Below, piece after piece: positions 44,945 through 54,997 of a stretch of DNA of 64,000 nt (its first letter is position 1; each line of letters opens with the position of its first letter). A program made the position numbers and the translations under genes. The stretch is from Pantoea rwandensis. GTDB lineage: Bacteria > Pseudomonadota > Gammaproteobacteria > Enterobacterales > Enterobacteriaceae. The notes under the pieces were generated by a model, which was given only the letters and a program-made list of their open reading frames with translations, had not been told where the DNA came from and made no database searches. The DNA lies in assembly GCF_000759475.1 (NCBI RefSeq), contig NZ_CP009454.1, positions 434,001 to 498,000 of the forward strand, written 5' to 3'.

Positions 44945-46195
44945 ATGTCCTTTTCTCAGTTCGGCGACAAATTTACTCAACATTCCGGCATCTCACGTCT
45001 GATGGAAGACATGGGTGAAGGCCTGCGCACGCCTGGCACCATTATGCTCGGCGGCGGCAACCCGGCGCAGATCCCGGCCATCAATGACTACTTCAATCAG
45101 TTACTGCTACAGATGCATCAGGATGGCAAACTGAGCGAAGCACTGTGCAACTACGATGGTCCGCGCGGCAAAACGCTGCTGCTGGATGCGCTGGCGAACA
45201 TGCTGCGTGAAGAGCTGGGCTGGCCGATCACCGCGCAAAATATTGCGCTGACGAATGGCAGCCAGAGCGCGTTCTTCTATCTGTTCAACCTGTTTGCTGG
45301 CCGTCGCGCTGACGGCAGTAAAAAGCGCGTGCTGTTCCCGCTGGCGCCGGAATATCTCGGTTACGCCGATGCCGGACTGGAAGAAGATCTGTTTGTTTCC
45401 GCCAGGCCAAACATTGAGCTGCTGCCCGAGGGCCAGTTCAAGTATCACGTTGATTTCGACCATCTGCCGCTGAATGAGGACGTGGGCCTGATTTGCGTGT
45501 CGCGCCCGACCAACCCAACCGGCAACGTGATCACCGATGACGAGCTGATGCAGTTGGATGCGCTGGCACAGCAGCATGGCGTGCCTCTCCTGATCGATAA
45601 CGCCTACGGAGTGCCCTTCCCCGGCATTATCTTCAGCGAAGCCCGTCCGCTGTGGAACCCAAATACCATTCTGTGTATGAGCCTGTCGAAACTTGGCCTG
45701 CCGGGTGCACGTTGCGGCATTATCGTTGCCGATGAAAGCACGATTAGCGCGATTGGTAACATGAACGGCATCATCAGCTTAGCGCCAGGCAGCATCGGCC
45801 CGGCGATTGCCACTGAAATGATTGTGCGCGGTGATTTGCTGCGTCTGTCGGAAGAGGTGATCAAGCCGTTTTATCAGGCCAAGGTAAGCGAGACGATTGC
45901 CATTCTGCGCCGCTATCTGCCGGAAGATCGCTGCCTGATCCACAAACCCGAAGGCGCGATTTTCCTTTGGTTGTGGTTCCGCGATCTGCCGATCAGCACC
46001 GAAGCGTTGTATCAGCGCCTGAAAGCGCGCGGCGTGCTGATGGTGCCGGGCCACTTCTTCTTCCCCGGTCTGGAACAGGAATGGCCGCATACGCATCAGT
46101 GCATGCGCATGAACTATGTGCCGGACGCGGAGAAAATTGAACGCGCGGTGCAGATTCTGGCGGAAGAGCTGGAAATGATAGCTAACGAGGCTTAA
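44945..46195 (+). CDS. avtA: Valine-pyruvate aminotransferase
   Basis: PLP aminotransferase (416 residues, E. coli 417) that makes alanine from pyruvate using valine and related amino acids. The N-terminal MSFSQFGDKFTQHSGISRLMEDMGEGL is nearly invariant in AvtA. The PLP region is clear: SRPTNPTGNVI, LLIDNAYGVPFPG, and the Schiff-base lysine in MSLSKLGLPGARCGI. Convergent with the MocR gene, overlapping by four bases at the stop codons. Confidence 0.95.
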   Translation: MSFSQFGDKFTQHSGISRLMEDMGEGLRTPGTIMLGGGNPAQIPAINDYFNQLLLQMHQDGKLSEALCNYDGPRGKTLLLDALANMLREELGWPITAQNIALTNGSQSAFFYLFNLFAGRRADGSKKRVLFPLAPEYLGYADAGLEEDLFVSARPNIELLPEGQFKYHVDFDHLPLNEDVGLICVSRPTNPTGNVITDDELMQLDALAQQHGVPLLIDNAYGVPFPGIIFSEARPLWNPNTILCMSLSKLGLPGARCGIIVADESTISAIGNMNGIISLAPGSIGPAIATEMIVRGDLLRLSEEVIKPFYQAKVSETIAILRRYLPEDRCLIHKPEGAIFLWLWFRDLPISTEALYQRLKARGVLMVPGHFFFPGLEQEWPHTHQCMRMNYVPDAEKIERAVQILAEELEMIANEA

Positions 46196-47640
46196 TCCGC
46201 CGTTAATGACAGCTGGCACCACTCTGCCAGCTGTTTGATCGCCTGCTCCACTTCCGCATTCCAGCCAAAACCGGCATTCAGCCGGAAACAGTGATCGTAG
46301 CGATGATCGGTGGCAAAGATGTGCCCTGGCGCGATGCCGATGCCCGCGTTACGCGCCTTCAGAAACAGTGCGCGCACGTTTAACGACTGAATTGGCATTT
46401 CCACCCACAACACATAGCCGCCTTCCGGATCCGATACACGCGTACCCGCAGGGAAATAACGCAACACTGCCTGGCGCATATGGTGGATTTGATTCTTCAG
46501 CTCACGACGCAATTTGCGCAGATGCGCATCGTAGCCGCCGCTGCGCAGCAGTTCGGCAATCGCCGCTTGTGACAGCACCGAGGTGCCCATGCTGGTGGTG
46601 TATTTCAGCGAGGCGATTTTGCGCATGTAATTACTGCTGTGCACCCAGCCAATGCGGATACCGGGCGCCACCGTTTTCGAGAAGCCGCTGCACAGAATGG
46701 CATTCGGGCTGAAGGCGCGCATCGGGAACGGACGGCGATCGCCAAAGGCCGTATCACCAAAGATATCGTCCTCAATAATCACCACATCATTCTCATCGGC
46801 CTGACGCGCAATATAAGCCTTCTGCTCGTTGGGAATGCTTTTCCCCAGCGGATTATTGATGTTGTTGATGGTGAGATAGGCCTGCACCGCTTTACGCTGA
46901 AACAGCGCGGTGAGCTTGCTGACGTTAACATAACCTTCCGGCCCGGCTTCCACTTCAATCACGCGCAGATTGAGGTTATGCAGCATCTGCAACAGCACGA
47001 AGTAGCACGGCGATTCCACTGCCACGATATCACCGGGGCGGGTCGTGGCGCGCAGAGCCAGTGAGATAGCTTCGATGCAGCCGTTGGTGATCAGGATGTC
47101 ATCAGCGCTGATATTGCAGCCATAATCCACCGCGCGGCGTGCAATCTCGGCTTTGAGCGGCGCATAGCCGGTGCCTTTCACCGTGTTTCCGAGCAGCGCC
47201 GGTTTGCTGTAGCCCATCTGGCGCATCAGCAATCCAATTTTCTTGACCGGATAGAGCGAGATATCGCCATTGGCCAGATCCAGCCGCACACGACAATCGG
47301 AGCCCAGCATCGCCAGATGCAGCTCGGTTTGCTCATCCAGCGGGGCGACTTCACGCGGCTGTTCGCTGTGGATGGCTGCGGGTAACGCCCTGGGAACCTG
47401 ACGGGGTGCAACAAAAAAGCCGGACTTGGGACGCGCCACCGCATAGTGTTCATCCTCCAGCGTCCGTAATGTTTTCAGGGCGGTGGTCATGCTGACGCTG
47501 TACTGTGTCGCTAGTGTACGTACCGACGGTAAACGGCTATCGGGCGGCAACGATCCGCTGTGAATCGCCTGCTTTATCTGCTCTGCAATCTGACGGTAAC
47601 GACTACTCTGACTCTCCTGTTCACCCGTTCCATCCGCCAT
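46192..47640 (-). CDS. MocR/GntR-type regulator with aminotransferase domain
   Basis: A 482-residue regulator from the preferred start (ATG 47640, preceded by GGTGGAA); an in-frame ATG at 47679 adds 13 residues. The N-terminus is a GntR winged helix (RYRQIAEQIKQAIHSGSLPPDSRLPSVRTLATQYSVSMTTALKTL). The rest is a fold-type I aminotransferase domain with the PLP lysine in CSGFSKTVAPGIRIGW, as in PdxR, GabR and YdcR. MocR proteins sense PLP adducts of amines or amino acids. It is divergent from the biosynthetic cluster at 47823, so it is the best candidate for its regulator, perhaps sensing the amino acid product or precursor. Confidence 0.87.
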   Translation of the reverse strand: MADGTGEQESQSSRYRQIAEQIKQAIHSGSLPPDSRLPSVRTLATQYSVSMTTALKTLRTLEDEHYAVARPKSGFFVAPRQVPRALPAAIHSEQPREVAPLDEQTELHLAMLGSDCRVRLDLANGDISLYPVKKIGLLMRQMGYSKPALLGNTVKGTGYAPLKAEIARRAVDYGCNISADDILITNGCIEAISLALRATTRPGDIVAVESPCYFVLLQMLHNLNLRVIEVEAGPEGYVNVSKLTALFQRKAVQAYLTINNINNPLGKSIPNEQKAYIARQADENDVVIIEDDIFGDTAFGDRRPFPMRAFSPNAILCSGFSKTVAPGIRIGWVHSSNYMRKIASLKYTTSMGTSVLSQAAIAELLRSGGYDAHLRKLRRELKNQIHHMRQAVLRYFPAGTRVSDPEGGYVLWVEMPIQSLNVRALFLKARNAGIGIAPGHIFATDHRYDHCFRLNAGFGWNAEVEQAIKQLAEWCQLSLTAD

Positions 47641-47822
47641 CTGTTCCACCCTATATCGTGCTGATCTGTGCGTATCCATCAGATTACATTCAAAGTACTT
47701 TAGGCTGCATCTGTTTATTCAGCCTCAGACATTCATTCCGTTGCAACTTCGTGGCCCCTTTTCCTGCACGTTGCCGCCAGCACGGTAACGGCGATTTTAT
47801 TAGCCAAAGGATGAAGTGAAAA

Positions 47823-49289
47823 ATGAATAATCTGTCCACCATGATGAGAGAAATTGAAGGTTATCTCACGCCCGCGATCATCGATTCTGCTCAACGCTGT
47901 TCTCAACGCTTACTTGCCGCCCTGCCCGATAGCAAAAATCCCGCGAACAATCGCGTGCTGCTCGCCTATGGCGGCGGGAAAGACAGCAGCTATATGGTGG
48001 CGTATGTGCGCTACATTCAGGGGTTGATCTGGCAGCAGCAGGGCAGCACCTTCCAGCTGCGCATCAGCACCAATCGTCACGCGGCGATGAACGACAGCGT
48101 GATGGAGAATATCGACCGGGTATATCGTGCACTGCACATTCCGGGGGATGACTTTACCGAATGCCTGGTGACCGATGGCCTGCAAATCCGCCACTTCGAA
48201 CGCCATTTGCCAATGCCCGATAGCGTGCGTCAGCAGAATCGCAACGATGTGCTGATGAATGGCCATCGCTTCCGTGCCGATGCGCGTTCCACTTTCTGTA
48301 ACGCCTGCAACCTCAGCATGGTGAACTCGTTTGGCCTTGCCGCGCATTACGAGGGCGGCGTGGATGTGATCATCACCGGTGATTCGCCGCAGGAGCAAAC
48401 CGCTTACCTCGCCTGGGCTCGTCATCTTTCACGCCTGTTTGATGCGCCCGTTGCCGACAAATCACGCGGCTTTAGCGGCTTCCTGCAAACCCTCGATGGC
48501 GTGGCAGAACGCTATTTCGCCGACATTTACGGCGCCGATCAGGTTACCCCGGCCCATCGCATCACCTGGCAGCTGGCGCGCGATCCGCTGTTCTTCAACA
48601 TCTATCAGGACACCGCCTATGAAGCCGGTGCGCACTGGTCACTGCTCACTGAATTTATGCACTTCCGCTTTGATGAGCTGATGTTCAGCTTCTCTGAATC
48701 GGACTGCGGCAACCCGACGTTAATGGCACATATTCGCGGTCTGCGAGCGGAGACGCTGATGCAGCGTAGCTACGCCGAAGGCATTCGCGAATATGTGCGC
48801 TTTGCGCTCGGCCTGATGGAGAAGAAAGATTTCCCGCCGCAACTGATTGCGGAAATGGCGGCGCGTTATCAGGACGATGCGGCGATTGAACGTGCTCGCC
48901 AGCGTGCAGCACAGTTTGCCGAACAGGCCTTTGGCCTCAACGAAACCCAGCTGGTGTGCATGATCTATTCGCCGTTTATCGCGCAGGGCCACCAGCTCAA
49001 CGTCTGGCTGCAACAGCTCAACCAGGCACCCAATGAGCAGGCGGTGCGGGCGCTGCTGTGTGGCGATAGCGATGACCTGCTGCTGACTCAGCAGCTTGAG
49101 CACCTCTCCGGCCTGACCATTGCGCAGATGCGCCAGTGCTGGCGCAGTGCGCAGGTTAATACATTGCTGGATGGTACGCGCGGCGATGCGCTCTCACGCG
49201 TGCTGCGTTTCGATCCGCACAAAGCAGTGATTCAGGTCAACAACGGTGCCTTGCAAGACATCGTTACTGAAGTGATCTCCGGGCGATAA
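47823..49289 (+). CDS. PP-loop ATPase, probable amide-forming or thiolating enzyme of a biosynthetic cluster
   Basis: A 488-residue protein. RVLLAYGGGKDSSYMVAY (residues 44-61) is a PP-loop ATP pyrophosphatase motif, with GGGKDSS in place of the common SGGxDSS. A CxxC pair follows at C159/C162 (STFCNACN), as in zinc-binding or sulfur-handling PP-loop proteins. The remaining 250 residues, with many helices, do not resemble a family that I recognise. PP-loop proteins adenylate a carbonyl or nucleobase before amidation or thiolation. With a separate class II amidotransferase two genes on, it could be the synthetase half of a split amidotransferase. First gene of the cluster; AAGGATGAAG upstream. 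Confidence 0.72.
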   Translation: MNNLSTMMREIEGYLTPAIIDSAQRCSQRLLAALPDSKNPANNRVLLAYGGGKDSSYMVAYVRYIQGLIWQQQGSTFQLRISTNRHAAMNDSVMENIDRVYRALHIPGDDFTECLVTDGLQIRHFERHLPMPDSVRQQNRNDVLMNGHRFRADARSTFCNACNLSMVNSFGLAAHYEGGVDVIITGDSPQEQTAYLAWARHLSRLFDAPVADKSRGFSGFLQTLDGVAERYFADIYGADQVTPAHRITWQLARDPLFFNIYQDTAYEAGAHWSLLTEFMHFRFDELMFSFSESDCGNPTLMAHIRGLRAETLMQRSYAEGIREYVRFALGLMEKKDFPPQLIAEMAARYQDDAAIERARQRAAQFAEQAFGLNETQLVCMIYSPFIAQGHQLNVWLQQLNQAPNEQAVRALLCGDSDDLLLTQQLEHLSGLTIAQMRQCWRSAQVNTLLDGTRGDALSRVLRFDPHKAVIQVNNGALQDIVTEVISGR

Positions 49290-49306
49290 CCCGGTAAGGC
49301 GACGCG

Positions 49307-50584
49307 ATGAGAAAGATTTTCCTGCAGATTGGTGCCACGCGTGACGGGCAAAATCCGTACTGTGCGGTGGCAAAACGCGAGGGCTATTTTACCGTGCTGG
49401 CGGAGATGGGCGACTTTGTCGACTATCAAAGCTTAAGCATTCAGCTGCCGTTCGATCTGATTGTGCGTCTCGATCGCCCGGAAAATCCGTGGGATGTGTT
49501 ACAAGCCTGCCTGCGAGCGGGCTTACTGGAACATCCTCAGGTGGTACTGGCGGGCTTTGAAGCCTACAACACCAGCGCCGGTCGCGTGCGTGAACTGCTG
49601 GCCGGGCCGGATGCCGGCCCGAGCTTTATTCCGCCGGATAAGTACGCGCAGCGCATGGCTCTGCGTAAAGCCTGGCCGCGCTTCCCACAGCCGGAGTTTC
49701 GCTTCTTTGCCTCACCACTGAGCATTCGTGACGCGCGTGATGCGCTGCTGTTTCCCTGCGTGATCAAACCGGTGGATGGCGGCGGCGGATTAGGGATCTG
49801 GCTGGTGGAAGAGGCCAGCCAGCTCGATGCGGTAATCGGCAAGCTGGTGGAGACCATGAACTACGGCGGACGCGGCTTCAGCGGTTTTATCGTCGAAAGC
49901 TGGCTACCGGGCGACGAATATTCACTACAAGGTGTGGTGGATAACGGACACGCGGTGGCGCTGACCTGCTGCCAGAAGGTGATCGAGCACCACATAGATG
50001 CCGAAGGCTGTATCAGCTTTTACGAATCCGGCCATGTGGCGATGGCCGCGCAACAGCTGCCTGCGGCCTTTGCCAGTTTGATGAGCTTTTGCTGTGAGAC
50101 CTTTGGCTATCGCCAGGGTGCCTTCCACATCGATTTCATTATGGTGAACGGTGAACCGCACTTCCTGGAAATGGGTTTCCGTTTGTCGGGCATGGGCGTG
50201 GTGAATCTGGTCGAGGAAGTCACCGGTATCAACTGGGCAGAGGTGGCGTTTCAGATTGAAGCCGGGCGCGGTTTGCCTGTGCTGCACTTCCCGGAGCAAC
50301 CCCAGGCTATTGGCCGCCTGCGCCTGCGTCAGCGCCTGCAATTCGACGCTGCGGAGCGCTGGATCGCTGAACATCAGCGCGGTCAGCTACTGCCACCGCT
50401 CAATCTGCCCGCGCTTGCCGTCTCGCCGCGATCCTCGTTGTATGCCGATCTCACTCGCCATGCCGGTATTCTCGCCACCTTCCGTCTCGCGGCAGACAGC
50501 CGGGACGATGTGCTGGCCGTTTTCCAGCAGATTCTCGACGTTCCGTCTTTAGCCACCCGGAGAGATCTTCTATGTGCAGAATGA
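49307..50584 (+). CDS. ATP-grasp carboxylate-amine ligase
   Basis: A 425-residue ATP-grasp enzyme. The central domain shows the ATP-binding IKPVDGGGGLG (153-163) and the C-terminal metal site HIDF (274-277) with EMGFRLSG (288-295). The asparagine usual in the last motif (ExNxR) is glycine, but the glutamate and arginine remain. Such ligases join an acyl phosphate to an amine, as in dipeptide and antibiotic synthesis (for example in BacD or DdaF). It starts 17 bases after the PP-loop gene and overlaps the amidotransferase gene by 13 bases. Confidence 0.82.
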   Translation: MRKIFLQIGATRDGQNPYCAVAKREGYFTVLAEMGDFVDYQSLSIQLPFDLIVRLDRPENPWDVLQACLRAGLLEHPQVVLAGFEAYNTSAGRVRELLAGPDAGPSFIPPDKYAQRMALRKAWPRFPQPEFRFFASPLSIRDARDALLFPCVIKPVDGGGGLGIWLVEEASQLDAVIGKLVETMNYGGRGFSGFIVESWLPGDEYSLQGVVDNGHAVALTCCQKVIEHHIDAEGCISFYESGHVAMAAQQLPAAFASLMSFCCETFGYRQGAFHIDFIMVNGEPHFLEMGFRLSGMGVVNLVEEVTGINWAEVAFQIEAGRGLPVLHFPEQPQAIGRLRLRQRLQFDAAERWIAEHQRGQLLPPLNLPALAVSPRSSLYADLTRHAGILATFRLAADSRDDVLAVFQQILDVPSLATRRDLLCAE

Positions 50585-51282
50585 TTCTGGCATATGGCCA
50601 GTTTGATGCAGCCGCGGTACTGGACGCCGCTCGCGCGATGAGCTGCGGCGAAACCGCGACCCATGAGGGCCCGATTAAACAGCACCCGAATGGCTGGGGC
50701 TGTTTGTGGCTGGATCAGGGAAAGATGCGCACCCTGCATGGCACAGGCACTTTTGCGGATGCGCTGCCCGGCATTGATGTGGATGCTCTGCGTCATAGCC
50801 GTTTTCTGGCGGTGCATGTGCGCCACGCCACGCTGAGCAAAAATCATGGCATCGAGTTTTCTCATCCGCTGTGGCGTACCAGCGGTGCTACACAGTGGTA
50901 CATGATGCACAACGGCTTTTTACCCACGGTTTATGCGCAACTGGGCATGGCGGAATCGCGCTTTGACTCCGCCGAATACCTGGAATACATCGTCGATCAG
51001 GTGACGCCTGCCGATTTTACCCGTGACTACCTGCGCAGCAAGATGGCGCGCGTGGCACCGGGCGGCAGTGCGGCTAATGCGATTTTTGTCACCCGGGATA
51101 AAGCCTGGGCGTGGCAGTGGCATCCCGATGACACCCCTTATCCTGACTATTTCACGTTGCACCATTATCAAAACAACAGCACCACTTTTATCTCTTCTGA
51201 ACCTATTGCTGCACTGGGCACGGCGTCTGACTGGCGTCGCATGAACAACCATGAACTTCATGAATTTCCACTTGGGGAGTGA
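50572..51282 (+). CDS. Class II glutamine amidotransferase (Ntn hydrolase)
   Basis: A 236-residue stand-alone class II glutaminase. The nucleophile is Cys2, exposed on removal of Met1 (MCRMILAYG). HPNGWGCLWLD, HVRHATLSKNHGIEFSHPL and WYMMHNG match the conserved glutamine-binding residues (Asn-Gly-Trp-Gly, the Arg-His-Ala loop and His-Asn-Gly oxyanion hole). It would release ammonia from glutamine for a partner enzyme, most likely the PP-loop ATPase or ATP-grasp ligase of the cluster. No synthetase domain is fused to it. Confidence 0.86.
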   Translation: MCRMILAYGQFDAAAVLDAARAMSCGETATHEGPIKQHPNGWGCLWLDQGKMRTLHGTGTFADALPGIDVDALRHSRFLAVHVRHATLSKNHGIEFSHPLWRTSGATQWYMMHNGFLPTVYAQLGMAESRFDSAEYLEYIVDQVTPADFTRDYLRSKMARVAPGGSAANAIFVTRDKAWAWQWHPDDTPYPDYFTLHHYQNNSTTFISSEPIAALGTASDWRRMNNHELHEFPLGE

Positions 51283-51287
51283 TCAGC

Positions 51288-52088
51288 ATGGCCATTTTCA
51301 ATCAGATACGCGTTATCCATCCAAAAATGTTCGTCGAAAGCACCTGGCTGGATGACATCGTGACCGCGCGCGTGCCGCTGTTGGTGCTGCGCAATTTCCT
51401 GACGCCTGAAGTGCGTGAAGCGGTGGTGGACGATCTGCAACAGTGCCGCGATCACGTGCGCGTCTCGCGCTATCCGAATGGCGCACTGACCACGCTCGGC
51501 CCCTATCTGGCTAAACACACTCGCGCACCAGAAAATTACTTCACCGAGCTGCGCGACATCCAGCCTGCTCTGCCACCGTCACTGCACTGCCTGCGCGATC
51601 AGGTTTACAACTGGGTGAAGCACTCATTGCGTCTGGAGAGTCTGCACACTGCCCGCGAGCCGGAGTTGGGCGATTATGCGGGTTCGATTGTGCGCTTTCA
51701 TGCCAACGGCGTCGCCAATCCACTGCATAACGACAACATCGTACGCGATGCCGCGGGCAGTGGTTTGGCCGTCACCAACATCCTGCACCAACTGAGCTGT
51801 GTGGTCTGTTTGCAGGAGTGTCACGCGGGCGGGGAACTGCGGATATTCAACAAGAAGTGGCATCCGGTGGATGAGCGCTTCAAAACGCCAGGTGAACTCG
51901 GCTATCAGACTGGCGTCATTGAGCAAAGCGAGGCGTGTGAGTTCTCCCCACGCAGCGGCGATATCTATCTGTTTAATCCTGCGTTTTATCACGAGATTGA
52001 TCGCGTGGAAGGCGACACGCGCATCACCATGGGCTTTTTCTTTGGCCTGACCGACAAAAAAATGAAGCACGCCATTGCCTGGAGTTAA
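51288..52088 (+). CDS. Fe(II)/2-oxoglutarate-dependent oxygenase
   Basis: A 266-residue double-stranded beta-helix enzyme. The facial triad is visible: H147 and D149 (PLHNDNI), H235 (PAFYHEID), and R245 (GDTRITMG) to bind 2-oxoglutarate. These enzymes hydroxylate, desaturate, epoxidise or halogenate; the H-x-D (not H-x-G) triad argues against halogenation. ATG 51288 is preferred over GTG 51279 because GGGGAG is correctly spaced. It probably tailors the amino acid made by the cluster. Confidence 0.84.
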   Translation: MAIFNQIRVIHPKMFVESTWLDDIVTARVPLLVLRNFLTPEVREAVVDDLQQCRDHVRVSRYPNGALTTLGPYLAKHTRAPENYFTELRDIQPALPPSLHCLRDQVYNWVKHSLRLESLHTAREPELGDYAGSIVRFHANGVANPLHNDNIVRDAAGSGLAVTNILHQLSCVVCLQECHAGGELRIFNKKWHPVDERFKTPGELGYQTGVIEQSEACEFSPRSGDIYLFNPAFYHEIDRVEGDTRITMGFFFGLTDKKMKHAIAWS

Positions 52089-52115
52089 TGCCGGGCCTTC
52101 GACGAGGAGAGGAAG

Positions 52116-52616
52116 ATGAATACCTTTGAAAAAATCACCGCCCTGCTTGATCAACACCACGCGGACTATCGCGTGGTGGAGCATGAGGCCATCGGCCAGA
52201 CCGATGTGATCAGCAGCATTCGCGGCAACGATCTCAATCAGGCGGCCAAAGCGATGGTGCTGGAAGTCACGATGCCGGACGGCGCCGATGCGCGCTACCT
52301 GCTGGCGATTGTACCAGGTGATTGCAAGATCAACTTCAAAAGTGCCGCGCGCGCCATTGGCGGCAAGAAGTCGAGCTTTGCCGCGCCAGAGAAAGCGCAG
52401 GATCTGACGCAGTGTGTGATGGGCGCGGTGCCGCCCTTTAGTTTTGATGACCGACTGGCGTTGCGCGTCGATACGCGCCTGCGTGATGTCGGCACGCTGT
52501 GGTTTAACGCCGGTGCGCTGGAACGTTCCGTGGCGCTGAATGTGGATGATTTTTTTCGTGTTGTCGGCGATGACTGTTGTGCAGACATTGCCACTCCGAT
52601 GACGGCGACTGCCTGA
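52116..52616 (+). CDS. YbaK/ProX-type aminoacyl-tRNA deacylase
   Basis: A 166-residue protein of the YbaK/EbsC editing family (a central KAMVLEVTM...LLAIVPGDCKINFKSAARAIGGKKSSFAAPEKAQDLT, with the conserved lysine and GxxP-like VMGAVPPFSF). Members hydrolyse mischarged tRNA such as Cys-tRNA(Pro) or Ala-tRNA(Pro). Inside a biosynthetic operon this suggests protection against charging of the product, an amino acid analogue, on tRNA. Starts 27 bases after the oxygenase gene with GAGGAGAGG upstream. Confidence 0.82.
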   Translation: MNTFEKITALLDQHHADYRVVEHEAIGQTDVISSIRGNDLNQAAKAMVLEVTMPDGADARYLLAIVPGDCKINFKSAARAIGGKKSSFAAPEKAQDLTQCVMGAVPPFSFDDRLALRVDTRLRDVGTLWFNAGALERSVALNVDDFFRVVGDDCCADIATPMTATA

Positions 52617-52639
52617 AACGGCTGCAGTAAGGAACGAGT

Positions 52640-53545
52640 ATGTCAGTAAAAGATATGATGTTAGCCCTGTGCGTGGTGGTGGTGTGGGGCGTGAATTTCG
52701 TGGTGATCAAACTGGGCCTGCACGATATGCCGCCGTTTCTGCTGGCGGGATTGCGTTTTGCGTTAGTGGCGTTTCCGGCGATCTTCTTTGTGAAGCGGCC
52801 GCAGATCCCTTTGCGCTGGCTGATTGTGTACGGCATGACCATCAGCTTTGGTCAGTTCGCTTTCTTGTTTCTGGCGATCAAACTCGGCATGCCAGCAGGA
52901 CTGGCCTCTCTGGTGTTACAGGCGCAGGCGTTCTTTACGCTGCTGCTGGGGGCTTTATTGCTGGCGGAAAAACTGCGCTGGAACCACATCGCCGGGATTT
53001 TGGTGGCGACACTTGGCATGTTTATGCTGGCAACAGCGGGCATGGAGGGGCAAACCACTGCTGGGATTACGCTGACCACCATGATGCTGACGCTGGCGGC
53101 GGCGCTGTCGTGGGGACTGGGCAATATCACCAACAAGATCATATTGCGTAACCGTAAGGTGCCGGTAATGTCGCTGGTGGTGTGGAGTGCACTGGTGCCG
53201 ATCGTGCCCTTTTTCGCCTGCTCATGGTGGTTCGATGGCGAGGCAGCGATCGTCACCAGTCTGCTGCATATCTCGTTGCAGACTCTACTGGCGCTGATTT
53301 ATCTCGCGTTTATTGCCACCATTGTCGGCTATGCGATCTGGGGCAATCTGCTCGGTCGCTATGAGACCTGGCGTGTTGCGCCGCTGTCACTGCTGGTGCC
53401 AGTGGTGGGCATCCTCAGTGCCGCGCTGGTGCTCGACGAGACCTTGTCAGCGCAGGAGATTCTCGGCGCATCGGTGATTATACTCGGCCTGCTGGTAAAC
53501 GTGTTTGGCGGGATGGTAAGCCAGCGATTATGGGTGCGCACCTGA
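52640..53545 (+). CDS. EamA/RhaT-family amino acid exporter
   Basis: A 301-residue, ten-helix exporter (two EamA repeats) close to E. coli EamA (YdeD), which exports O-acetylserine and cysteine: N-terminal LALCVVVVWGVNFVVIKLGLHDMPPFLLAGLRF and C-terminal LLGRYETWRVAPLSLLVPVVGILSAALVLDE are highly alike. Last gene of the cluster, so it probably expels the product. AAGGAACGAG precedes the ATG. Downstream, its probable terminator has been split by an IS element. Confidence 0.88.
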   Translation: MSVKDMMLALCVVVVWGVNFVVIKLGLHDMPPFLLAGLRFALVAFPAIFFVKRPQIPLRWLIVYGMTISFGQFAFLFLAIKLGMPAGLASLVLQAQAFFTLLLGALLLAEKLRWNHIAGILVATLGMFMLATAGMEGQTTAGITLTTMMLTLAAALSWGLGNITNKIILRNRKVPVMSLVVWSALVPIVPFFACSWWFDGEAAIVTSLLHISLQTLLALIYLAFIATIVGYAIWGNLLGRYETWRVAPLSLLVPVVGILSAALVLDETLSAQEILGASVIILGLLVNVFGGMVSQRLWVRT

Positions 53546-53576: not shown

Positions 53577-54997
53577 TAATGCTTGTCAGTTAAGATCTTA
53601 ATGGAGGCCGCAACGGATAACGTTGCGGCTTCTTTTTTACCGCCCTTGGGTAATGCCGCACTCTTCTTTCTGGCAGCACCAGCCCTGGCGCCATCGCCAT
53701 TACCTCTTCCATTATCCGCGGTATTTTTCCCGGTGAGATGCCCGGTAGCAGGCTCAGATGACTTCTCAGATACAGTGCGGACTGCTTAAAACTCATCTGA
53801 TAAGGTTCCACGCCTTTCAGGCTGTACGCCATCTGCGCCATCATGAACCTCAGAAGGTTATAGGCTAGGACCACGCCCCACAGCTCCTGACGCACAAGTT
53901 CTGGCTTTTTGCTTCTCAGCGTCAGCTCATTATTCAGCAGGTGTTGTTTCATCTCGCGGAACCCATGCTCTATTTCCCAGCGATGGCCGTATAAATCCAC
54001 GACATCTGCTTTGGGATACCTCAGGGGATCGCACATGGATGTCAGGATTTGAACCGTTTTTCCGTTGAGTTCTTTGCTGATAAGCCTTGCCGTCAGCGTG
54101 TCCGCAGCTCCCTGCCATTTTTTCTTCGCCTGCGGCGACAGCTTTAATTCCACCAACGCCTGCCCGGCCCCTAAGCTACGGACTATACGGTACTGTGCTC
54201 CTTTGCGCAGCGGCAGCATCCAGTGTCTTTCCGTTCCCGCTGACTGCCAGGCGTGCAGCAGACCCAGCGCGTAAAAACCTTTATCAAAGAGGGTCAGAGA
54301 GTGGTCGGGGGTCTGTGGGATAAGCTGAGCGGCAAGATCGGCTTCGCCGGCAGCTGAGACGCTGTCGAACGCTGCTGCTGACAGCAGGTGACTGGTGACT
54401 TCCATCTGACAGACCATTCGCACCTGCGGCCACTCAGAGCACTTATTAATATTGGCCGTTCGCCCGAAGGCGGCATCATTCTCTGGTGTGTCAGGGGTAC
54501 GCCATACGGTGCCATCCACCGCCATCAGAGTCAGTCCGTTCCAGTGCGACAGCGGTGTCTTTTCAAACCACAGGCGCTGCGTTTTCTCAAACATTAACCG
54601 GATAACATCTTCTCCAAATCGCTGCCGGGCCTGCACAACCGCGCTGGGCGCAACAAAGGGCCTTTTCCCCGGCAGAAGGATATCCAGGTGTGAGACGAGC
54701 TGAGTCATCGAATGGGAGCGAAAAAGTGCCATGCCCGTCACTGCCCAGACCATCATTTCCATCGACAACCTGCGCTTACGTAACGTTACTGTCCCGGTAT
54801 CCGCGAGACACTCGTCAATAAGTTCAGGAGAAAGGAGATCAGAAAGCGTCGAGAACTCCTGAGGAGTAAAGTTATGAACAATATCGAGAGCCTGACTGAG
54901 AAGCATAAAAAAATCCGTAATCCCTGAGAGATTACGGATTCTTGCAGAACTGTTGGATCGTTCAACCGATCATTTTTGTCTTAACTGATCGGCATTA
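53577..54997 (-). mobile_element. IS4-family insertion sequence, complete
   Basis: The element is 1421 bp, with terminal inverted repeats TAATGCTTGTCAGTTAAGA at the left end and TAATGCCGATCAGTTAAGA (read inward) at the right, and flanked by an exact 12-bp direct duplication. It holds one intact transposase gene on the minus strand. Intact ends, gene and duplication mean a recent, probably still active copy. Confidence 0.92.
53590..54906 (-). CDS. IS4-family transposase
   Basis: A 438-residue DDE transposase, in the size range of IS4 InsG (442) and clearly related to it: [61 protein letters not shown] (first Asp), [14 protein letters not shown] (second Asp) and [40 protein letters not shown] with the Y-(2)-R-(3)-E-(6)-K signature and catalytic Glu. 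The frame is complete, so the protein should be functional. Confidence 0.95.

Follow-up and report, generated by a model that had tools for sequence, protein, structure and literature searches.

Background

Two kinds of gene cluster are among the described systems closest to the locus reported here. The 6-thioguanine operons, ycfA-D in Erwinia and tgsA-F in Staphylococcus, are presented in the parts of the reports consulted as encoding NUDIX hydrolases and a pyridoxal phosphate (PLP) type sulfur-mobilising or desulfurase enzyme and as leading to a purine product; TgsB of the tgs operon was modelled on TtuA (PMC7994395, PMC6225789). The dapdiamide/herbicolin I cluster of Pantoea comprises nine genes, includes the amide ligase DdaF and yields an amino-acid-derived antibiotic. 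In the sections of the source at hand it is plasmid-borne in two described strains and is present in few genomes (PMC9641835). Here we describe a cluster of six genes (A to F) and a divergent MocR regulator gene in a 64,000-nucleotide stretch of the Pantoea rwandensis genome (contig NZ_CP009454.1, positions 434,001 to 498,000; hereafter the window, in whose positions all coordinates are given).

The operon is real and conserved, apparently has no published description as a small-molecule locus, and is likely to build and export a modified amino acid. Near-core and free of mobile carriers in a genus used for biocontrol, it probably makes a small amino-acid metabolite that has gone unrecognised. 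The key enzyme, A, represents a widespread family that is reached by no Pfam or NCBIfam model, and the presence of modifying enzymes together with an EamA exporter and a tRNA deacylase allows the class of the product to be guessed. If this interpretation is true, it would suggest what EamA exporters and YbaK-type deacylases concretely do when toxic amino acids have to be handled.

The original prediction, made from the sequence of the window, did not recognise the gene combination as a described pathway. In agreement, no description of it was found in searches of open-licence PMC full texts, several of which were directed at comparison systems and not at this gene set; subscription papers and the MIBiG database lie outside this scope, so absence in print is unproven. 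The PNP-1 cluster of P. ananatis (PMC4010436), the phosphonate clusters of Pantoea ananatis (PMC9933511) and mangotoxin (PMC13185094) were considered and rejected, as none of them is this gene set in the portions of the reports compared. The corresponding portions of a 2010 survey of tRNA-synthetase-like proteins (PMC2922099) contain no such gene set.

A conserved chromosomal operon

The six genes are co-directional between positions 47823 and 53545 and divergent from the MocR regulator gene. A and B are separated by 17 bases, B and C overlap by 13, and the D-E and E-F intervals are 27 and 23 bases. The distance from C to D is 5 bases from the ATG start of D, or a 4-base overlap from an alternative GTG start. 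All seven open reading frames (ORFs) proposed in the original prediction are found in the ORF list in the tight order claimed, with gaps of 5-27 bases or overlaps. The families it had named from motifs also hold, six by Pfam matches above cut-off (GntR plus aminotransferase I/II for MocR, ATP-grasp, GATase_4, WelO5-type 2-oxoglutarate (2OG) oxygenase, tRNA_edit and EamA) and A by its PP-loop motif and predicted fold.

A contig scan of the genomes with A identified 25 loci, 17 of which keep mocR and A to F near full length and in the same order (L002-L004, L006-L009, L011-L013, L015, L017, L019, L021 and L023-L025). The grouping of the genes is not due to chance, because this order is kept in other genomes and the ratio of nonsynonymous to synonymous substitutions is low (dN/dS 0.04-0.19 for all six genes against four Pantoea-type loci; in a fifth comparison, with Hafnia, dS was saturated). 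The set is inherited as a unit. It also seems to move as one, since Hafnia psychrotolerans (L021; A 68% identical) carries all of it at another site, where the avtA, ghrB and ibp genes that flank it in Pantoea are missing. One or two genes are split by apparent frameshifts in L005, L010, L014, L016 and L018. The operon has decayed in three insect symbionts (Pantoea sp. Eser, Ca. P. persica and the Plautia stali symbiont; L020, L022 and L026), as expected for a function that is useful among competitors. Full-synteny, Pantoea-like loci were also found in records titled Enterobacter cancerogenus (L002), Erwinia sp. (L003) and Enterobacter ludwigii (L007), names that look like misidentifications.

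Of 61 genomes of the genus, 51 contain gene A, which is full length and in one piece in 47 and split or partial in G1133, G1136, G1144 and G1147. With the P. rwandensis genome itself counted each time, it occurs in 3 of 198 genomes sampled from the family (three genera), in 3 of 295 from the order (a single genus) and in 7 of 398 from the phylum (two genera). Protein searches link A, C and D indirectly, on equal-sized contigs, in Serratia proteamaculans, Serratia liquefaciens, Pseudomonas sp. LB3P31, Paramixta manurensis and [Pantoea] beijingensis. The locus tags of A, C and D are near-consecutive in the last two (PMPD1_0026, 0024 and 0023; ED28_03290, 03300 and 03305). Salmonella enterica records contain A, C and D as well, co-location on one contig not being visible in the lists.

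A plasmid or phage origin was considered and rejected. Among 72,556 plasmid records, A has one relative (Methylobacter), C one (Embleya) and D three remote ones; B gives remote matches only, in 69 records, the best 30 listed being 21-27% identical. The viral scan returned no relative of A, and the E. coli genomes no DNA match to A, B or C. The cluster is a conserved chromosomal module. A phage-defence reading was also rejected: PADLOC gave only a match of D to a 2OG protein associated with clustered regularly interspaced short palindromic repeats (CRISPR), at 32.8 bits.

Near-core status in the genus, purifying selection and the many Pseudomonas in which MocR is the only partner of A would also suit a product that is not a weapon but a housekeeping or signalling metabolite, such as a stress thiol or a cofactor-like amino acid, with EamA and E dealing with spill-over. 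However, the rarity of A in the family and order samples, its patchy distribution across Hafnia, Serratia, Salmonella and Pseudomonas, the exporter and extra deacylase encoded in the operon and the decay of the operon in insect symbionts all speak against this explanation, which we consider improbable.

The PP-loop enzyme A

A (47823..49289, forward strand) is a protein of 488 amino acids. A search of Pfam and NCBIfam at E 0.01 gave no match, so no curated tRNA-thiolase model is reached, and a search of PDB sequences with an A profile gave chance matches only. Its identity as a PP-loop ATPase follows from the GGGKDSS motif, invariant in the 30 sequences of alignment A1, and from the structural neighbours of the predicted fold, which are PP-loop enzymes. 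The C-terminal GR is also invariant in A1. Three cysteines (C159, C162 and C295) form a TtcA-like CxxC...C triad, kept in all members of the homologue set examined that have an intact PP-loop; structural and profile comparisons suggest that they may occupy the positions of thiolase cluster ligands. TtcA was the nearest of three families in profile comparison (Prob 86, against 55 for QueC and 41 for WbuX). Single E. coli sequences gave values near 1 for AsnB and NadE and 27 for GuaA, in a comparison for which the choice of A sequences differed slightly. By sequence, A most resembles the iron-sulfur (Fe-S) dependent thiolases; on fold and profile similarity, membership of the N-acetyl sugar amidotransferases is conceivable. 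Two observations weigh against this reading: the best structural match of A is an amidotransferase, and the PP-loop and cysteines are not lost together in every homologue. Because of this imperfect co-loss we slightly lowered our estimates for sulfur transfer by A, which now falls somewhat short of even, and for the family-wide extension described below.

The A family is cross-phylum, with 595 homologues, the best 120 listed being 46-98% identical. In some Pseudomonas (L030-L039, of which L035-L039 are wider stretches of L030-L034) an apparent pseudo-enzyme, with altered PP-loop and cysteines and a recognisable remainder, adjoins MocR. These forms suggest a regulatory or binding role.

Proteins B to F

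B (49307..50584, forward) has an ATP-grasp domain by Pfam. In structure alignments its fold and ATP-grasp core are nearest to the solved L-amino acid ligases, at 14-20% identity. No named ligase cut-off is reached; the DdaF model of NCBIfam gives 34 bits against a cut-off of 840. C (50572..51282, forward) is a stand-alone class II glutaminase of the N-terminal nucleophile (Ntn) amidohydrolase type, matched by PF13230 at 26.3 bits (cut-off 23). Cys2, Arg84, Asn114-Gly115 and Asp132 are invariant in 25 of 25 sequences; we take the N-terminal Cys, the Arg, the Asn-Gly and the Asp to be the active site of a class II glutaminase.

D (51288..52088, or from 51279, forward) is an Fe(II)/2OG oxygenase. 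Its ATG start at 51288 is more likely than the GTG at 51279: the ATG is preceded by GGGGAG and homologues in alignment A3 begin there. PF22814 matches at 72.6 bits and the hilA model at 34 bits, far under its cut-off of 500. H150, D152, H238 and R248, numbered on the 269-residue ORF from GTG 51279, are invariant in 25 of 25 sequences of A3 and correspond to the HxD...H triad and the 2OG-binding arginine. WelO5 halogenases have HxG, in which glycine replaces the iron-binding aspartate. Since HxD with Asp152 is present in all 25, D is predicted to be a hydroxylase of the WelO5/HilA group and not a halogenase. Judged from the alignments, the catalytic residues of both C and D are complete. A Streptomyces protein (P0303) has a piece of an ATP-grasp domain fused to a D-type oxygenase; the fusion may be an assembly artefact, and it suggests that B-like and D genes are neighbours in Streptomyces too.

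E (52116..52616, forward) is an aminoacyl-tRNA deacylase of the YbaK/ProX type, whose solved relatives include YbaK. PF04073 (tRNA_edit) matches at 74.4 bits (cut-off 25.5) and the YbaK equivalog model at 56 bits (cut-off 153.25). E is a predicted subtype separate from the YbaK Cys-tRNA(Pro) deacylase, and two diverged relatives are encoded at other places in the genome. F (52640..53545, forward) belongs to EamA by Pfam and is 63% identical to E. coli EamA (b1533) across 291 residues; its next closest relative in its own genome is 30% identical. The NCBIfam equivalog for EamA gives 407 bits, under its cut-off of 472. As an orthologue of this cysteine/O-acetylserine exporter, with no closer copy, F implies a product that is probably of cysteine or asparagine size.

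Other gene sets around A

The set extends beyond one cluster: in Pseudomonas and Methylobacter, members of the A family occur in the company of other genes. On a Methylobacter plasmid, A (42%) accompanies an asparagine synthetase A-like protein, a B12-binding protein, MutE of glutamate mutase, an EamA exporter and a MocR-like gene, with a PanB gene approximately 7 kb from A. Of 298 Pseudomonas genomes sampled, 238 have a relative of A at E 0.001, and many of these matches are weak. Context was compared for 20 loci from the better part of this match list and five from the phylum sample. Ten of the listed matches are at least 40% identical to A, and eight of the ten were examined (L057-L063 and L075). 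All eight carry asparagine synthetase A, a luciferase-like flavin monooxygenase, a B12-binding protein, a first ATP-grasp protein, A, MutE, a second ATP-grasp protein, a PanB-like protein and MocR (L062 supplied the probes, so its own match is a given). A major facilitator superfamily (MFS) gene is found in six of them, and the second ATP-grasp protein is DdaF-like (200 bits, cut-off 840). This is a second, undescribed-looking gene set around the A family. Its PanB paralogue is possibly a resistant target copy, which would hint at pantothenate biosynthesis as the target.

The 12 other loci of the match list (L064-L074 and L076; A 33-39%) carry A and MocR in 11 cases. No other probe matched beside A there, except for one PanB match in L074. 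Their A and MocR genes are surrounded by genes of housekeeping type, among them those for a DinG-like helicase and phosphoglucomutase. The five loci of the phylum sample (L035-L039) have a degenerate A and MocR only.

In the Pseudomonas and Methylobacter sets, glutamate mutase would yield 3-methylaspartate and asparagine synthetase an asparagine-type amide, so the simplest substrate common to A in all sets would be a beta-substituted asparagine. A small amino acid as the product is also indicated by EamA, annotated in E. coli as a cysteine/O-acetylserine exporter, in both the Pantoea and Methylobacter sets.

These sets bear on two other explanations. A and C might form a split glutamine-dependent amidotransferase, comparable to AsnB or GMP synthetase, which makes an amide, amidine or nitrile of the amino acid and involves no sulfur. 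However, the eight Pseudomonas sets and the Methylobacter set have no match to C and have asparagine synthetase A instead; the cysteine triad of A, its weaker profile matches to WbuX and QueC than to TtcA and the low values of AsnB, NadE and GuaA further argue against a split enzyme, and we regard it as unlikely. Alternatively, B could add a gamma-glutamyl or other aminoacyl mask, A and D modify the masked compound and an EgtC-like C unmask it before export by F. EgtC and butirosin are precedents for such protecting-group chemistry, and the L-amino-acid-ligase fold of B suits it, as does a C that is unfused to any synthetase and overlaps B. The Pseudomonas sets carry ATP-grasp genes without C, and masking seems very improbable. 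Both alternatives share the core reading of a small amino acid with the explanation we prefer, so the likelihoods assigned to them overlap and need not total one.

The regulator, the intergenic region and a downstream insertion

The MocR-type regulator (46192..47679, reverse strand) combines a GntR winged helix-turn-helix (PF00392) with a class I/II aminotransferase domain (PF00155) and is syntenic in Pantoea and Hafnia. In NCBIfam its scores stay below the cut-off of each named MocR subfamily listed. The MocR and A genes diverge over 143 bases. In an alignment of 23 such intergenic regions (12 rows printed), a 30-bp block (47681..47710) with the palindrome AAAGTACTTT at 47692-47701 is kept in most, and has diverged in Hafnia. 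It is a candidate MocR operator/promoter element.

Outside the module, an IS4-family insertion sequence (53577..54997, reverse), recognised by its transposase ORF, is bounded by a target duplication of approximately 12 bp and is absent from all three relatives compared (L002, L003 and L006). It sits between the operon and a downstream small-heat-shock-like gene. A putative terminator hairpin and T-run follows F in L002 (GCCGCATTTCTGCGGCG); in the window it is split by the element, which may change transcription termination after F.

Proposed pathway

The complete proposal is that the operon serves to build and export a small modified amino acid, or a dipeptide containing it, most likely from an Asn/Asp-type precursor and probably against competitors. 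We judge this to be evenly balanced as a whole. Small-amino-acid biosynthesis and export is probable, an Asx-type substrate falls just short of even, and nitrogen transfer by A is doubtful. An antimetabolite role of the product is plausible.

In this pathway D would hydroxylate an amino acid, probably at C3, and in Pantoea could thereby turn ordinary asparagine into the hydroxy form. A would adenylate a carbonyl, probably that of the side-chain amide, and swap out the oxygen; given the TtcA-like cysteines, sulfur, which would give a thioamide, is slightly favoured over nitrogen as the incoming atom. C, whose catalytic residues are in place, may release ammonia from glutamine or trim a gamma-glutamyl group. 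The fold of B predicts that it joins an amino acid via its carboxylate to an amine. E, from its family, would hydrolyse tRNA mischarged with the product and so shield the producer, F would export the product, and MocR would regulate the operon, perhaps via the conserved operator-like block.

The original prediction read the cluster as activation, amidation or ligation, oxidation, self-protection and export, a reading that is partly supported. The self-protection gene (E) and the exporter gene (F) remain plausible; the other steps are refined, with D as a predicted hydroxylase, B nearest to L-amino acid ligases and A thiolase-like by sequence. A bolder extension is that A founds a cross-phylum family of Fe-S-dependent PP-loop enzymes, which replace the amide oxygen of free beta-substituted asparagines with sulfur and yield thio-asparagine-type antimetabolites. 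Pantoea (with its hydroxylase) and Pseudomonas/Methylobacter (with glutamate mutase and asparagine synthetase) would be two assembly lines with the same key step. We offer this as a speculation that is more probably wrong than right by a wide measure.

Comparison with known systems

The cluster was originally held to differ from dapdiamide and from the ycf 6-thioguanine set, and both distinctions stand. It resembles the 6-thioguanine operons, as portrayed in the parts of the reports consulted, in being compact; a PP-loop sulfur transferase is found there, and a small membrane exporter in tgs (PMC7994395, PMC6225789). The Pantoea cluster differs in having an ATP-grasp ligase, a glutaminase, a 2OG oxygenase and a tRNA deacylase, and Pfam and NCBIfam find no NUDIX or PLP sulfur-mobilising/desulfurase genes among its six genes. 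An amide ligase is shared with the dapdiamide cluster, and B matches the DdaF profile weakly, under its cut-off. However, no PP-loop protein is named for that cluster in the sections of the source at hand (PMC9641835).

The individual proteins show the same mixture of likeness and difference. A shares the PP-loop and the CxxC plus third cysteine with the Fe-S thiolases TtcA, TtuA and NcsA. Unlike them, it is approximately 170-190 residues longer than the 298-311-residue chains compared and lies in an operon with a ligase, a glutaminase and an exporter. B has the fold and ATP-grasp core of the L-amino acid ligases BL00235, BacD/YwfE and RizA, but low identity to them. D belongs to the family of the WelO5 halogenases and the HilA isoleucine dioxygenase, but is set apart from the former by its HxD motif and from the latter by its low hilA score.

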